Shown one piece after another: positions 11,954-17,325 of a stretch of DNA of 39,707 nucleotides. This DNA is from Piscirickettsiaceae bacterium. Lineage in GTDB: Bacteria; Pseudomonadota; Gammaproteobacteria; Nitrosococcales; Methylophagaceae. The stretch lies in the NCBI GenBank assembly GCA_024685995.1, contig JAIBDY010000019.1:1-39707 (forward strand), given 5' to 3'. Numbering within the stretch: the stretch's first letter is position 1; each line of letters begins with the position of its first letter. The notes below the pieces were generated by a model, which was not told the DNA's origin, did not search any database, and was given only the letters and a program-made list of their open reading frames with translations. The translations under genes and the position numbers were made by a program.

Positions 11954-12718
11954 ATGAAAACCGCCAACATTTACACTTTTTCGTTTCTCCTCCTCCTCCT
12001 GACTGCTTGCAGTAAAGACAAAATTCCGGGCGTTTATCGTATTGATATCCAGCAAGGCAACGAGATTACGCAGGAGATGATTGGTCAGTTAAAGCCGGGA
12101 ATGACGAAAAGTCAGGTTGCGTACGTGATGGGGACGCCACTTATCATCGATACCTTTCATCCTGATCGTTGGGATTATTTGTATAGCTATCACCCTGGTA
12201 ATGGTCAACGTGAACAGCGCCATATTACCCTGTATTTCAAACAGGACCAGTTAGACTATTTAGACGGTAACACGCGTATTGTAGCGCGAGAAGATATTCC
12301 AAGCATTGTCCGCGTCGATAGTAATGTTGTCGTGCCATTATCGGATAAAAAAATTGGCCTCATCAATGAGCTGAAAGACCGTATTGGTATGGAAGATGAA
12401 GACAGAGTAGAAGGCGCCGAAGACAAGCCAGACTTATTCAAAAACCGTCCTATTCCCGTACCCAAAAAATCGACGGGACTTATCGACCGCATCTCTGGCG
12501 CCGTAAGTTCAGAAGAGCGTCAAGAGCCTGAAGTTGAGAAAGCGTCCAAGCGCCCAAGCCTACTTAAACGTTTTATCGGCATAAATAACGATGAAGAAGC
12601 TAAGGATACAGCCCCCTTAAGCAATGAACAAACTGATCCGAAAGAAGATTCCGCCATTGTTGAGACAATAGCGGAACCCAGCTTTATTGACCGTATCAGA
12701 CATGCGTTAGGCTTATAA
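11954..12718 (+). CDS. bamE: Outer-membrane assembly lipoprotein BamE with long C-terminal extension
   Basis: BamE is the small lipoprotein of the BAM complex that inserts beta-barrels in the outer membrane. The signal ends in lipobox LTAC with Cys19. Residues 25-112 form the BamE/SmpA fold, including [17 protein letters not shown] and the DRWDYLYSY strand. The family is usually about 110-180 residues, but this protein has 254. The extra 130-140 residues are acidic, low-complexity linkers carrying four short amphipathic segments: [38 protein letters not shown] and [14 protein letters not shown]. The domain assignment is firm; the extension's role is unknown. Confidence 0.93.
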
Positions 12719-12735
12719 GAGTAGTCTCCGACCGA

Positions 12736-13365
12736 TTAACGTACGGTAACGAATTGATCCTGCTCAGGCTGGTAACTGAGTAACTCGCCGACGCGCACGT
12801 CAAAATACCAGCCATGCAAGCTAAGCGTCCCTTGCTCGACACGCTCTTTGATACAAGAAAAACTTAATAAGTTTTCCAATGAAACCAAAATTGCTGCTTG
12901 TTCGCATGCTGCTAATTGTTGTTCAGCTGTATCATTACTATATTGGGTTTTCACCTTATCTTTAGCACGTTGAGCAATGGAAACCCAAGGCTGGATAAAT
13001 TGTGATGTCGCACTCCCATCATCTTGCCAAAGTGCTTGTATACCCCCACAGTTTGCATGTCCCATCACAATGATATTTTCAACCTTCAGGCTATTCACGG
13101 CAAATTCTAGCGCCGCGCTCGTACCATGATAATGCCCTCCTGTTTCACAAGGAGGCACTAAGTTCGCGACATTGCGAACGATGAATAAATCACCTGGATC
13201 ACAGTCAGTTAAGATAGCGGGATCCACGCGAGAGTCACAACAGGCTACCATTAAAGTCTTGGCTGGTTGCCCCTCTTTCATACTGTCATACAGCTGGCTG
13301 TCATCCCCAAAATATTCCCGCTGAAAGCGTTTGAATCCTGTTAATAATTTTTCTGTACTGGCCAT
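12736..13365 (-). CDS. can: Beta-class carbonic anhydrase
   Basis: This zinc enzyme interconverts CO2 and bicarbonate in the cytoplasm. The 209 residues carry the zinc ligands: Cys42 and Asp44 in the CXDXR motif (CCDSR), and His103 and Cys106 in GHANCGG. IVRNVANLVPP and GTSAALEFAV are family segments. The beta class is assigned from this motif set. It is convergent with bamE, with 17 bases between stops. Upstream (13366-13561) lies the terminator of the neighbouring repeat gene, so it should have its own promoter within roughly 100 bases. Confidence 0.95.
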   Translation of the reverse strand: MASTEKLLTGFKRFQREYFGDDSQLYDSMKEGQPAKTLMVACCDSRVDPAILTDCDPGDLFIVRNVANLVPPCETGGHYHGTSAALEFAVNSLKVENIIVMGHANCGGIQALWQDDGSATSQFIQPWVSIAQRAKDKVKTQYSNDTAEQQLAACEQAAILVSLENLLSFSCIKERVEQGTLSLHGWYFDVRVGELLSYQPEQDQFVTVR

Positions 13366-13464
13366 AAAATTGTCTCTTCCATTCGTTTCTGACGTATCTG
13401 TTACTTACAGTGTCGATACAGCGCTTTATCTTGCTCTGAAATAGCATGAGTCTTCGTACAATAA

Positions 13465-13499
13465 AAAGCTACCGTTACAATTAATGCAACGGTAGCTTT
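13465..13499 (-). terminator. Rho-independent terminator after the WYEAN-repeat gene
   Basis: Perfect 12-bp arms at 13465-13476 and 13488-13499 enclose an 11-base loop. On the minus strand the stem is followed by TTTTTAT. It lies about 60 bases beyond the stop of the WYEAN-repeat gene and is oriented to end its transcript. It also separates that gene from can. Confidence 0.85.
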
Positions 13500-13561
13500 C
13501 GGTGTCATTTTAACTCGCAGTGTTAAATCGTATGAGCGACATTAACGCTACACCTAAATAC

Positions 13562-14668
13562 TTATTTTTGACGATCTCGGATTGTCTTCGTATTGGCTTC
13601 ATACCACTTTTTCTTGACTGATTTAGTCCGCACTAAAGCAATATTGGCTTCATACCATTTCTTTTTCATATCGGCATGAGGATCAACGATAGTATTGGCT
13701 TCATACCAAGGCTTACTTAGACGTGACGTTCTTGCTGCCACCAAGTTAGCTTCATACCATTTCTGCTTCAATTCAGCATGCGGATCCGCATGTAAATTGG
13801 CTTCATACCAAGGGGTTACAGCTTCTGATTCTGCCTGATTGGCCTCATACCATTTTGCTTTGTTCGCCCTAACAGCCGTCAATGCGACTTCTAGATTGGC
13901 TTCATACCATTTTTTCTTGGTATCCGCATGTTGTTGCATATTGGCTTCATACCAAGGCGTTTCAACTGGGCTGGTCTCACGTGATGCAGCCTCATACCAT
14001 TTATGTTGACTACTACGAACCACCGCAGTATTAGCTTCATACCACTTACTTTTAACACGCTTAGCTTTAGCAAGCGCTAAATTGGCCTCATACCATTTAG
14101 TCTTAATATCACGATGCGGATCGAGGGGGATATTCGCTTCATACCAAGGCGTACGAGATCTACTTTGACGCGCAGTTTCTAAGTTGGCTTGGTACCACTT
14201 CTGTTTTGATTCTGAATATCGTTCATCACTAAATTCATACCAATGCTTTTCTGTCACTGCTTGGTCAAGGTTCGCTTCATACCATTTAGCTTGATTTACA
14301 CGTGCGGCTTCAAGGTTCGCTTCATACCATTTCTTTTTGATTTCGGCATGAGGTCCAGTATCAAGGTTCGCTTCATACCATGGTGTTGACGTAGGCGTTT
14401 GTCGTTGATTGGCTTCATACCATTTTGCACGGGTTACTTTGACAGATGACACCGCCGCTTTTAAATTCGCTTCGTACCATTTCTTTTTGGTATCTAAATG
14501 TTTTGTCATATTGGCTTCATACCAAGGCACTCCTGTTGCTTGCACAGGCTCATTATTGGCTTCATACCAAGGCGTACCTTGTTGCCGAGAAACAGGCGCT
14601 TTATTCTTTTTAGCCTTTGCTTTCAGGCTTTTAGGCCATTTTGTATCGATATGTATAGTTGTACTCAT
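13562..14668 (-). CDS. WYEAN-repeat protein, function unknown
   Basis: I do not recognise this family. The 368-residue protein starts from ATG with an AGGAG site eight bases upstream. It has no signal peptide, no transmembrane segment and no cysteine, and is lysine-rich. After a basic N-terminus (1-32) it consists of 21 WY motifs from Trp34 to Trp355. Eighteen read exactly WYEAN; the others are WYEFS, WYQAN and WYEAA. Motifs are 14-19 residues apart. Units are preceded either by a Pro (often TP) or by Lys, often KKK. Linkers include DPHADMKK-like and LEAAR-like helical stretches. Tryptophan, Tyr, Glu and Ala codons are kept while their synonymous third bases vary, so selection acts on the protein. 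A terminator follows. A multi-core peptide precursor, a scaffold of short binding motifs, or a nucleic-acid-binding cationic protein are all possible; none is shown. Confidence 0.88.
   Translation of the reverse strand: MSTTIHIDTKWPKSLKAKAKKNKAPVSRQQGTPWYEANNEPVQATGVPWYEANMTKHLDTKKKWYEANLKAAVSSVKVTRAKWYEANQRQTPTSTPWYEANLDTGPHAEIKKKWYEANLEAARVNQAKWYEANLDQAVTEKHWYEFSDERYSESKQKWYQANLETARQSRSRTPWYEANIPLDPHRDIKTKWYEANLALAKAKRVKSKWYEANTAVVRSSQHKWYEAASRETSPVETPWYEANMQQHADTKKKWYEANLEVALTAVRANKAKWYEANQAESEAVTPWYEANLHADPHAELKQKWYEANLVAARTSRLSKPWYEANTIVDPHADMKKKWYEANIALVRTKSVKKKWYEANTKTIRDRQK
13565..14569 (-). repeat. In-gene tandem array of 21 WYEAN-coding units
   Basis: The coding array runs from Trp34 to the end of the protein. 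Distances between successive Trp residues are 15, 15, 19, 14, 17, 15, 14, 15, 17, 17, 17, 15, 15, 15, 19, 14, 17, 17, 17 and 17. The series 15-15-19-14-17 occurs twice, starting at units 1 and 13, exactly 190 residues apart. Linkers match too: MTKHLDTKK against MQQHADTKK, and QRQTPTSTP against QAESEAVTP. An ancestral block of at least five units was therefore duplicated and then diverged. Confidence 0.9.
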
Positions 14669-14779
14669 AATTTAGCTCCTCGGATACGCTTGATTACCCG
14701 TTAGTCTGATGTTAACTCATAGTTATCACAAACTACAACTTTAACTCAGAGTATTTTATCGCTTACTTTCGGCTAGCCA

Positions 14780-15196
14780 TTATTCAAAACAATGCTTTTC
14801 AGCTTTCAGTTGCTGTAACAAGCTAATACGTTGTTGGACCAGTAAAATACGCCGCTGTTCCTTTTCTTCTACTGTTGCGGAGTAGCCCATATAGGCAAGT
14901 CCCGCTAGGCCTTGAACAATAGGGATAAACTCCATTGTCACCATCGCAGCAGCCACTTTATTTGCATCATCGACATAAAAAGGCGCTTTATAACTATATT
15001 GATAAGGTTGCATCTTCCGTATTGTATTATCTAACCCCACACAGCTGAGCTGTTCTACTTCTATGTTTCGCTCAATCACAGGCGGTTCAAAGTATATGGG
15101 CTCCAAAGGTACTGCTGGCAAGGTCACTGCCATTATAGGTTTGGATACGATGACGCTCATCGTCGCTATTGCCATGACACTTAACATTAATCTCAT
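14780..15196 (-). CDS. Small secreted or envelope protein, hypothetical
   Basis: I do not recognise a named family. The 138-residue protein has a cleavable-looking signal peptide (residues 1-23, ending IMA). Next comes a proline-rich stretch (LPAVPLEPIYFEPP), a hydrophobic segment at about 81-103, and a charged helical C-terminus ending KAEKHCFE. The only cysteines, 52 and 136, could form a disulfide in the periplasm. AAGGGA-like purines (GAAGGGAAAG) about eight bases upstream of the ATG make a good ribosome binding site. It lies 111 bases upstream of the WYEAN-repeat gene on the same strand with no clear terminator between, so co-transcription is possible. Confidence 0.7.
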   Translation of the reverse strand: MRLMLSVMAIATMSVIVSKPIMAVTLPAVPLEPIYFEPPVIERNIEVEQLSCVGLDNTIRKMQPYQYSYKAPFYVDDANKVAAAMVTMEFIPIVQGLAGLAYMGYSATVEEKEQRRILLVQQRISLLQQLKAEKHCFE

Positions 15197-15387
15197 ATAA
15201 GCTTTCCCTTCTCAATCGCATAACTATGTCATCGGCATATTGAATGAAATCTACACTTTTTAATGCCATCATAATCCTTTACTTTAATTTATTAAATATC
15301 GATTTAATGGCTAGTTTCATAGTCTTTTATAGCTTACGATACACATTAGATACTAAATACACACCATGTAATTTATGGAGCATCACA

Positions 15388-15701
15388 ATGACGGCGCAAG
15401 GTTATGAGGAAAAACGTGATTTCGCTAGGATGCGTATCGATACCGTAGTTACTTATAACATTAAAGGTAGCAGCAATCAGGCTTATCAAGGCACCAGTCA
15501 AAACTTGAGTGCCACTGGCCTGTATATGACAACGGATAACATTATTGATATCGGCACAGAAATCGAGTTATCCATCAACGCCAGCAATCAGCTGCTCCCG
15601 CCATTGAAGCTGATGGTCGCGTTGTTCGGTGTATTGCAGATGACGTGAACGCCAGTTTATTCCATGTTTCTATTGCCTTGCTTAATATCAAGCAAAATTA
15701 A
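15388..15701 (+). pseudogene. PilZ-domain protein interrupted by a frameshift
   Basis: PilZ domains bind c-di-GMP. The ATG at 15388 follows GGAG with seven bases spacing. The first frame gives RDFAR (the RxxxR motif) and NLSATGLYM (the [D/N]xSxxG motif), then loses similarity and stops at 15648. From about 15591 the overlapping frame continues as AAPAIEADGRVVRC, then VSIALLNIKQN, ending at a stop at 15699-15701. That is the expected final part of a PilZ domain. One base is missing around 15580-15600 relative to an intact gene of about 104 codons. No convincing slippery heptamer is visible. A sequencing error is the main alternative to a true pseudogene. Confidence 0.8.
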
Positions 15702-16336
15702 ACTCGATAACTACTCGTCGTCATCACTTTCGACACTAATGACATAGCCAGTTTAACTGGCGTAGGCAAATCGACACCACCAGCTTCCATCGCAACAATA
15801 CCATGATGGGCCTCGTCTATTTTCATTTGCGCTAAGATGGCGTGGCTTTTTGTATCTTTCTGTCCAATTTTCTCGATATGCTCATCTAAGTGTTTAACAA
15901 CTTGAGCCTCGGTTTCTGCCACAAATCCCAAGCTCCATTTATCGCCAACTTTCCCAGCAGCAGCCCCCAACACATACGACCCAATGTACCAAAATGGGTT
16001 CAATAAACTGGTCTGTCCACCTAATTCATTGACTCTCTGTTCACACCAAGCTAAATGATCATTTTCTTCAATTGCGGCTTGCGCCATTGCCTGTCTAACT
16101 TCGGGTAACTTTGCCGTCAACGCTTGTCCTTGGTAAAGCGCCTGAGCCGATACCTCTCCAGCATGGTTAACACGCATCAGCTTGGCGGCTAATTTCCGCT
16201 CTGAAGCGGACAAAAGAGGTTGCTCAACTTCATGCCCTGGTGTCGGTCTGCTAGTCTGCTTAGGTCTAGCCAATATAGTATTGATCGCTTTGTCACACTC
16301 GACGATAACCCTATCGATAAAATTATAGTTTCGCAT
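15698..16336 (-). CDS. coq7: 2-polyprenyl-3-methyl-6-methoxy-1,4-benzoquinol hydroxylase (demethoxyubiquinone hydroxylase)
   Basis: Coq7 is a diiron monooxygenase for the penultimate step of ubiquinone synthesis, acting at the inner membrane. The 212 residues contain predicted iron ligands Glu61 (VNHAGEVSAQ), Glu91 and His94 (EENDHLAW), Glu143 (AETEAQ), and Glu175 and His178 (DEAHHG). A hydrophobic patch near 115-130 (WYIGSYVLGAAAG) suits membrane association. It implies ubiquinone respiration, and this Coq7 route is the alternative to UbiF in gammaproteobacteria. Its stop codon overlaps the end of the broken PilZ frame on the other strand. Confidence 0.95.
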   Translation of the reverse strand: MRNYNFIDRVIVECDKAINTILARPKQTSRPTPGHEVEQPLLSASERKLAAKLMRVNHAGEVSAQALYQGQALTAKLPEVRQAMAQAAIEENDHLAWCEQRVNELGGQTSLLNPFWYIGSYVLGAAAGKVGDKWSLGFVAETEAQVVKHLDEHIEKIGQKDTKSHAILAQMKIDEAHHGIVAMEAGGVDLPTPVKLAMSLVSKVMTTSSYRV

Positions 16337-16368
16337 AAATACTCTGTACTGCGTGTTGTATTAAGTCT

Positions 16369-17325
16369 CTAATGAACATCTTTTTCAAAGAAAGTTTTCA
16401 ATGTTTTGGCGAGTTCTTGTGGTTGAAATTTGGCTAAATAAGCATCAGCACCGACATTTTTCCCCATTTCTTGATTCGCTTCTGCACTCAAGGAGGAATG
16501 CATAATAACCGGTAATTTTTGTAAGCGCTGATCCGCTTTGATTTTCTGTGTTAGTACATATCCATCCATTTCTGGCATTTCAACATCGGTTAAGACTAGT
16601 TGGATCTGTTCTAAAATATCCTGACCCGACGATTCACATTGACTTGCCATTTCATTCAATTGGCGCCACGCCCTTGCCCCATTAGGGTGGCTCAAATATT
16701 TAATGCCAAGATAATCTAATGTGTCAGTGATTTGTTTACGCGCAATTGCAGAATCATCAGCAAATAAAACCGTATAATTTTTATCGGTTGTCAATTTGGG
16801 CATATTGTCTAGTTTCATTTCTTCATAAAAACCACCCGCATCGGCCAAAATCTTTTCTACATCCATAATCATGACGAGTCGTTTATCTGATAGTTCAGAT
16901 ACCGCAGTCACTAAACCGCTTAAACGCTTAGATAATAATAATGGTGGTTCTTTAACTTGTTCCCAATTTAACCGTTGAATCGTATCAACCGCTGTCACTA
17001 AAAAGCCTTGAATATGACTATTGTATTCTGTAATCATTAGAATTTTAGGTTCGTCAGTAGACTTTAGATTACAAAATTTTTGCAAATTTATGATCGGCAC
17101 CATCTCACCGCGTAGACTGACAAAGCCCTCAATGCCATTAGGCATATCTGGTGCCGCGGTAATTTCAGGTACGTTTAACACTTCCCGCACCTTAAAAACA
17201 TTGATCCCAAAGATCTCATTACGACCCGTTTCGTCACTCGTACCCAAGTTAAACAACAATACTTCTAAATGATTCGTCCCAGCTAGTTTCGTTCTTTCAT
17301 CAACAGTCTCTATCAAATTAGCCAT
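16369..17325 (-). CDS. cheV: Chemotaxis coupling protein CheV (CheW domain plus receiver)
   Basis: CheV couples chemoreceptors to CheA and has a phosphorylatable receiver that tunes adaptation. The 318 residues split into a CheW-like domain (about 20-165; FKVREVLNVPEITAAPDMP, GFVSLRGEMVPIINL) and a receiver (about 184-315). The receiver has acidic pocket Asp190 and Asp191, phospho-acceptor Asp247 in VLTDVEMPEMDG, a conserved Ser near 277 and Lys299. The ATG has AAGGA nine bases upstream. No other che genes are nearby, so its chemotaxis partners must be elsewhere on the chromosome. Confidence 0.95.
   Translation of the reverse strand: MANLIETVDERTKLAGTNHLEVLLFNLGTSDETGRNEIFGINVFKVREVLNVPEITAAPDMPNGIEGFVSLRGEMVPIINLQKFCNLKSTDEPKILMITEYNSHIQGFLVTAVDTIQRLNWEQVKEPPLLLSKRLSGLVTAVSELSDKRLVMIMDVEKILADAGGFYEEMKLDNMPKLTTDKNYTVLFADDSAIARKQITDTLDYLGIKYLSHPNGARAWRQLNEMASQCESSGQDILEQIQLVLTDVEMPEMDGYVLTQKIKADQRLQKLPVIMHSSLSAEANQEMGKNVGADAYLAKFQPQELAKTLKTFFEKDVH

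Follow-up and report, generated by a model that had tools for sequence, protein, structure and literature searches.

The WYEAN gene and its surroundings

The window, that is, the whole stretch of 39,707 nucleotides that was analysed, carries on its reverse strand a gene for a basic, highly repetitive protein, named here the WYEAN protein after its recurring motif (Table 1). The protein contains 21 Trp-Tyr (WY) pairs, 18 of them within the exact sequence WYEAN, 45 Lys, only three Gly and no Cys, has a computed pI of 9.5, and is, judged by inspection, devoid of a signal peptide and of a membrane span. Successive WY pairs are 14-19 residues apart, with 15 and 17 as the commonest spacings, and the linkers that follow the five-letter motif are 9-14 residues long. 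The numbers of Cys, WY pairs, exact motifs and linker residues had already been given in a first-pass annotation of the locus, and the counts confirm them. In 20,000 shuffles of the protein sequence, WYEAN was found at most once (mean 0.0013). The residue that precedes the WY pair is Lys in 13 of the 21 units, Pro in seven and His in one; a pair of Lys precedes only five motifs, and Pro or His precedes eight.

Table 1. Features of the WYEAN locus (positions in the window)
Feature	Position	Strand	Remarks
Probable intrinsic terminator 3' of the WYEAN gene (hairpin + T-run)	13464..13500	-	predicted fold, 60 nt, -25.0 kcal/mol
WYEAN repeat protein gene	13562..14668	-	368 aa, ATG start, 21 WY / 18 WYEAN motifs; orthologues in 33/36 family genomes
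Super-repeat B	13565..13957	-	residues about 238-368; 8 WY; without the central block of A; coordinates computed from residues
Super-repeat A	13976..14527	-	residues about 48-231; 12 WY including the HWYEFSDE block; coordinates computed from residues
Ribosome-binding site GAGGAG	14676..14681	-	from sequence; aligns with AGAGGT/GGAGG in relatives
Predicted sigma-70-like promoter	14709..14738	-	TTGTAG (14738-14733), 18-nt spacer, TAACAT (14714-14709); from alignment
Upstream neighbour, 138-aa protein	14780..15196	-	two invariant Cys, probably secreted (by inspection)

A feature absent from the first-pass annotation is that most motifs form two super-repeats, which together hold 20 of the 21 motifs and are identical at 85 of 131 aligned residues. 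At informative identical residues, the codons of the two copies agree in 41 of 76 cases, and codon usage alone predicts 41.1, which indicates an old duplication in which conservation has acted on the protein sequence and not on the DNA. The lack of any entry within the gene in the output of a tandem-repeat finder fits an old duplication. Elsewhere in the window, the C-terminal part of a bamE-like gene contains a short near-duplication (12505-12554; 26 bp, 1.9 copies, 84% matches).

The gene has its own conserved predicted promoter, located between the gene for the 138-aa protein and the WYEAN start codon. The comparison was based on 50 rows, namely 49 loci from a scan of a genome-contig collection plus the window: the pattern TTG...TAnTAT occupies the corresponding position in 44 of 46 rows, with a spacer of 18 nucleotides in 39, compared with a mean of 1.4 rows after shuffling; as the rows are related, they do not count as 46 separate observations. 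The two rows without the exact pattern include the window, whose -10 element reads TAACAT, and the window site is absent from the list of a generic promoter scan. The hairpin downstream of the gene was likewise not listed by the generic scan. In a crude test, a hairpin followed by a T-run was found after just 12 of 45 other loci (among them L043, L044, L045, L046 and L048), so that elsewhere the WYEAN gene may be transcribed together with downstream genes. No Rfam family was found over positions 12000-16500. A rough comparison of the WYEAN codon usage with that of HU, rpsA and ndk revealed no bias of the highly expressed type; rplB, sought to gauge expression from ribosomal genes, was not found in the incomplete genome of the window.

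Distribution and conservation of the family

Among 59 genomes drawn around the window, orthologues were found in 33 of the 36 that belong to its own bacterial family (Methylophaga and kin) and in none of the 23 beyond. By genus, the gene is present in 28 of 29 genomes of the window's genus and in 2/3, 3/3 and 0/1 genomes of three further genera. The exact motif, searched as a DNA pattern, matched in 53 of 57 family genomes, the reversed control pattern yielding seven matches over all 57; among the matches listed, those outside the WYEAN gene were only single stray ones. The scan of the contig collection returned 50 WYEAN loci, on contigs labelled Methylophaga or Piscirickettsiaceae or from bins of Gammaproteobacteria or Pseudomonadota, with M. 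aminisulfidivorans, M. thiooxydans, M. lonarensis, M. sulfidovorans and M. muralis among the Methylophaga species. The protein of the window is 65-71% identical to its orthologues, and the assignment of the window to this family is based on them. Across 369 genomes of the class, a single match lies outside the family, in the repetitive tail of a DEAD-box helicase (G378), and was read as unrelated. The phage, plasmid and viral records searched contained no WYEAN relative, and 109 pattern stretches in viral contigs included no relative of the protein. The WYEAN proteins are a conserved family, neither a product of chance nor a young repeat, and within the searches made the family is restricted to one bacterial family.

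Three family genomes are devoid of the gene. In the first (G031, 97% complete), nadK, recN, fur and bamE follow one another in order, and next to them there is neither a carbonic anhydrase gene nor a WYEAN or 138-aa gene. In the second (G022) the contig ends at bamE, and the absence of both the WYEAN and the 138-aa gene there is therefore uninformative. The third (G029) measures 1.1 Mb and is rated 100% complete, yet contains no match to recN, WYEAN or, above the cut-off, hexulose-phosphate synthase; we read it as a strongly reduced or wrongly placed genome.

The suggestion that the protein was possibly undescribed has held up within the databases and literature searched. For the window protein, Pfam gave three matches at E 0.07-0.1, all below the cut-off, PHROGs gave two at E 0.04 that were counted as no family match, and searches of NCBIfam (at E 1) and PADLOC (at E 0.1) gave none. 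A sequence search of the PDB returned only 5dra (E 0.5 and 0.55), aligned via an AN-rich pentapeptide-like repeat. Over 33 members, Pfam yielded weak matches scattered over 22 families, the best at E 0.00016 (IU_nuc_hydro) and 0.00018 (Vesi_VP2), none of them common to more than 8 of the 33. The 12 papers that contain the letters WYEAN include, judging by titles, none on such a protein, and literature listings on repeat proteins, proteomes or lineage-specific proteins of Methylophaga contained nothing recognisable as the WYEAN protein.

Purifying selection is strong across the whole protein and about four times tighter on the motif. In 16 orthologue pairs, hand-chosen among the 50 rows, dN/dS was 0.01-0.16 in 14, and dS was saturated in the other two; the pooled pN was 0.027 for motif codons versus 0.112 for linker codons, and the respective pS values were 0.66 and 0.55. 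For the analysis of single units all 50 rows were used, five of which are cut at contig ends (L066, L072, L090, L091, L092), and in two others (L067, L084) a single frame covers no more than part of the protein. In L084 (8001-9367) the protein is split over two open frames, which may reflect either a sequencing error or a breakage of the gene. The search for unit motifs required W, and the constancy of this residue was therefore taken from an alignment of 33 rows, which leaves out 17 of the 50 as near-duplicates or pieces and contains ten invariant Trp columns. The motif copy number is 11-27 among uncut WYEAN proteins. The residue following the motif varies among units, and the linkers are conserved by position: units of 17 residues often carry DPHAD and KKK, and units of 19 residues often carry LKAAV-x-SVRATR. 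In whole units, conservation was not significantly confined to one helix face (P 0.10-0.80); in linkers, significance was reached at spacings 14 and 19 only (P 0.019 and 0.013; eight tests, uncorrected).

An AlphaFold2 model (33 sequences, one chain) consists of helices of up to 43 residues and linkers, with a mean pLDDT of 64 and a pTM of 0.21. Seven helices of 19-43 residues each are predicted, and 253 of the 368 residues are helical in the model; pLDDT is 70-90 for 165 residues and below 50 for 91. A helical conformation of the WYEAN units is thus predicted, with no confident overall fold, and the WYEAN helices may form only on binding.

Neighbouring genes and candidate partners

Neighbours were counted as clusters within 8 kb that recur in at least 8 of the 50 rows, and eight of them were scanned with profiles; the names of genes in the window are readings of their sequences unless backed by a profile match. 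The recurrent neighbours include the 138-aa gene (46 rows), bamE (45), a carbonic anhydrase gene (41, downstream), a Lon-type protease (29), an MBL-fold hydrolase (28) and a sortase-type histidine kinase (11), the names Lon-type and MBL-fold resting on matches below the cut-off. The last three come and go among loci. The kinase, of the proteobacterial dedicated sortase system, lies upstream of the 138-aa gene in L049, L056, L062, L077-L080, L082 and L085-L087, in some cases with a regulator alongside; with NCBIfam, the regulator scored above the cut-off and the kinase just below. The locus therefore takes up different genes in different genomes, as we read the varying presence of the sortase-system kinase and the Lon-type protease.

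The 138-aa protein has a KAEKHCFE-like end, a signal peptide by inspection and no Pfam match at E 1, its AlphaFold model has a pTM of 0.49, and we regard it as a member of an uncharacterised gammaproteobacterial family. Its gene is present in 32 of 33 WYEAN genomes and in none of the three WYEAN-less family genomes; L055 has a piece of it at a contig end, in L065 and L088 none was found, and one genome (G018) has a short WYEAN protein without it. A two-gene module of the WYEAN and 138-aa proteins was considered and rejected: the 138-aa family is found in 7 of 274 genomes of the class, all outside the bacterial family, without a WYEAN match. The relatives in these seven genomes are weaker, and no WYEAN-like open reading frame was listed around the gene (which is near the contig end in L142 and L143). 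Thus, the 138-aa gene is linked to the WYEAN gene by position and is not a dedicated partner.

The Lon-type protease was also rejected as a partner, as its gene occurs in just 11 of 23 genus genomes, and it is absent from the window genome at E 1e-50. Methylotrophy as a common cause was discarded as well: hexulose-phosphate synthase is found above the cut-off in the WYEAN-less G031 and not in the window genome (82% complete). None of Rubisco, Lon-type protease, carbonic anhydrase and hexulose-phosphate synthase tracks with WYEAN. The first-pass annotation had spoken of a possible system and proposed to tabulate conserved neighbours; in this tabulation over the 50 rows no obligate, dedicated partner emerged among the recurrent neighbours, and the notion of a system is not supported, given that the gene is served by a promoter of its own and lacks a constant, dedicated partner. 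The WYEAN gene lies in a stable stretch, where it probably arose or was acquired early in the history of the family. As the position of the locus is inherited, it says little about the function of WYEAN.

A possible multivalent scaffold and its alternatives

The WYEAN protein may be a cytoplasmic multivalent scaffold that displays an array of helical docking or sticker motifs, an interpretation that we put forward tentatively and rate as somewhat short of an even chance. Each KWYEAN(L) unit would be a short helical sticker or docking motif, and 11-27 such units would be strung on short linkers, some helical and some broken by Pro. A single chain could then engage numerous partner molecules, or many chains could bind one another, resulting in a cluster or condensate; all motifs would make an equivalent weak contact, and what matters would be how many contacts are made. 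Under this reading, the motif would have a binding target, the protein would self-associate, and it would remain in the cytoplasm, all of which we infer. Features of scaffolds are present, namely many copies of one conserved short motif, a variable copy number, and a motif that is kept while the linkers drift. A nearly fixed motif combined with a free copy number is expected of valence and not of a catalytic fold. Nevertheless, several observations count against a scaffold: there is no constant dedicated neighbour, only stray motif copies occur outside the gene among the matches listed, the helical fraction of the model exceeds that of a typical disordered linker, codon usage is ordinary, and the one-face conservation test failed for whole units.

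The closest parallel is PYCO1, the pyrenoid linker of a diatom. Its KWSP sticker is helical when bound, and the sticker Trp is needed for self-association as well as for Rubisco binding (PMC10288592). The likeness lies in a short helical sticker with Lys-Trp that is repeated along the chain and in aromatic contacts to itself and to the partner, whereas PYCO1 has six unevenly placed small-subunit stickers, compared with 21 motifs 14-19 residues apart in the WYEAN protein, and has diatom Rubisco as its partner (PMC10288592), an enzyme that is not obligate for WYEAN bearers. We read the likeness as one in the way of working, not in descent. EPYC1 and CsLinker, Rubisco linkers of green algae, share repeated helical elements on a linker chain and a sequence unconserved beyond close relatives, but are largely disordered (PMC11570498), and the WYEAN protein is predicted to be mostly helical and is independent of Rubisco. 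The FLIPPer criterion is that repeated structured elements are spaced 20-120 residues apart (PMC11570498); the long helices predicted here start 33-59 residues apart, and the WY motifs follow each other at 14-19.

A narrower version, in which a membraneless body of the Methylophagaceae is built on the WYEAN sticker array, gathers a core enzyme or RNA of these methylotrophs and arose in evolution separately from every carboxysome and pyrenoid linker, is doubtful. If true, it would be a previously unseen bacterial condensate scaffold. Strong selection in nearly every sampled member of this family of marine methylotrophs, together with the failure to find a relative elsewhere, points to a cell function that, judging from a limited literature search, has apparently not been looked for. 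As a single gene is involved and several host species are in culture, the scaffold idea is testable.

An unlikely alternative is a self-assembling structural protein, in which helices with W-Y faces would pack on their own copies and form a filament or lattice without any client. The regular unit, the seven predicted helices, the position-specific conservation of the linkers and the strong selection would be in accordance with such packing. However, the seven helices have hydrophobic moments no higher than those of shuffles (P 0.19-0.67), spacings of 15 and 17 residues do not put the Trp residues on one face of a continuous helix, and the single-chain model contains no confident packing. The same moments and spacings argue against a simple coiled coil and a membrane coat.

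It is less likely still that the protein binds nucleic acids or another polyanion, its Lys-rich flanks holding phosphates and its Trp and Tyr stacking on bases. Peptides of the type Lys-Trp-Lys do stack, the pI is 9.3-9.8 in all 30 WYEAN proteins measured, of which two are truncated by contig ends, and Lys precedes 235 of 354 WYEAN copies. Nevertheless, residues 81-200 and 241-320 of the window protein carry almost no net charge, this reading would leave the conserved Glu, Ala and Asn of the motif unexplained, and the window protein matches no nucleic-acid-binding family above the cut-off in Pfam or NCBIfam.

Amphipathic helices that coat a membrane or the surface of an inclusion, similar to apolipoproteins or phasins, appear improbable. 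Trp, Tyr and Lys are typical interface residues and long helices are predicted, but the helices are no more amphipathic than shuffles, and a Pfam search of 33 members at E 1 gave no phasin family.

It is very improbable that the protein links Rubisco or carbonic anhydrase into a carboxysome- or pyrenoid-like body, although the carbonic anhydrase gene is a frequent downstream neighbour and a protein of the RuBisCO_large family is encoded in the window genome and in 14 of 23 genus genomes. The search for this family covered 23 genomes of the window's own genus, and its control also matches in Bacillus subtilis, so that a family match is no proof of a carboxylase. The match is absent from 8 of 22 WYEAN-bearing genus genomes, six of which are 93-99% complete (G003, G010, G011, G012, G017, G018), and at L045 the locus lacks a carbonic anhydrase gene. 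The RuBisCO_large-family protein of the window genome is encoded at G000:C17:18475-19368.

Ustiloxin-type multi-core precursors contain many copies of a short core, as does the WYEAN protein, and the first-pass annotation had offered two uses for the motif, a core that is excised or modified and a docking motif. A precursor from which WYEAN peptides are cut out and modified is hardly credible, in spite of the repeated short core and the Lys before 13 of its copies, because the linkers show position-specific conservation and are subject to purifying selection; the core borders have no constant cleavage signal, seven copies following Pro and only five a Lys pair; none of the recurrent neighbours was recognised as an enzyme of peptide modification; and the Lon-type protease has the patchy distribution given above. 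Of the two uses, the docking motif survives as a candidate.
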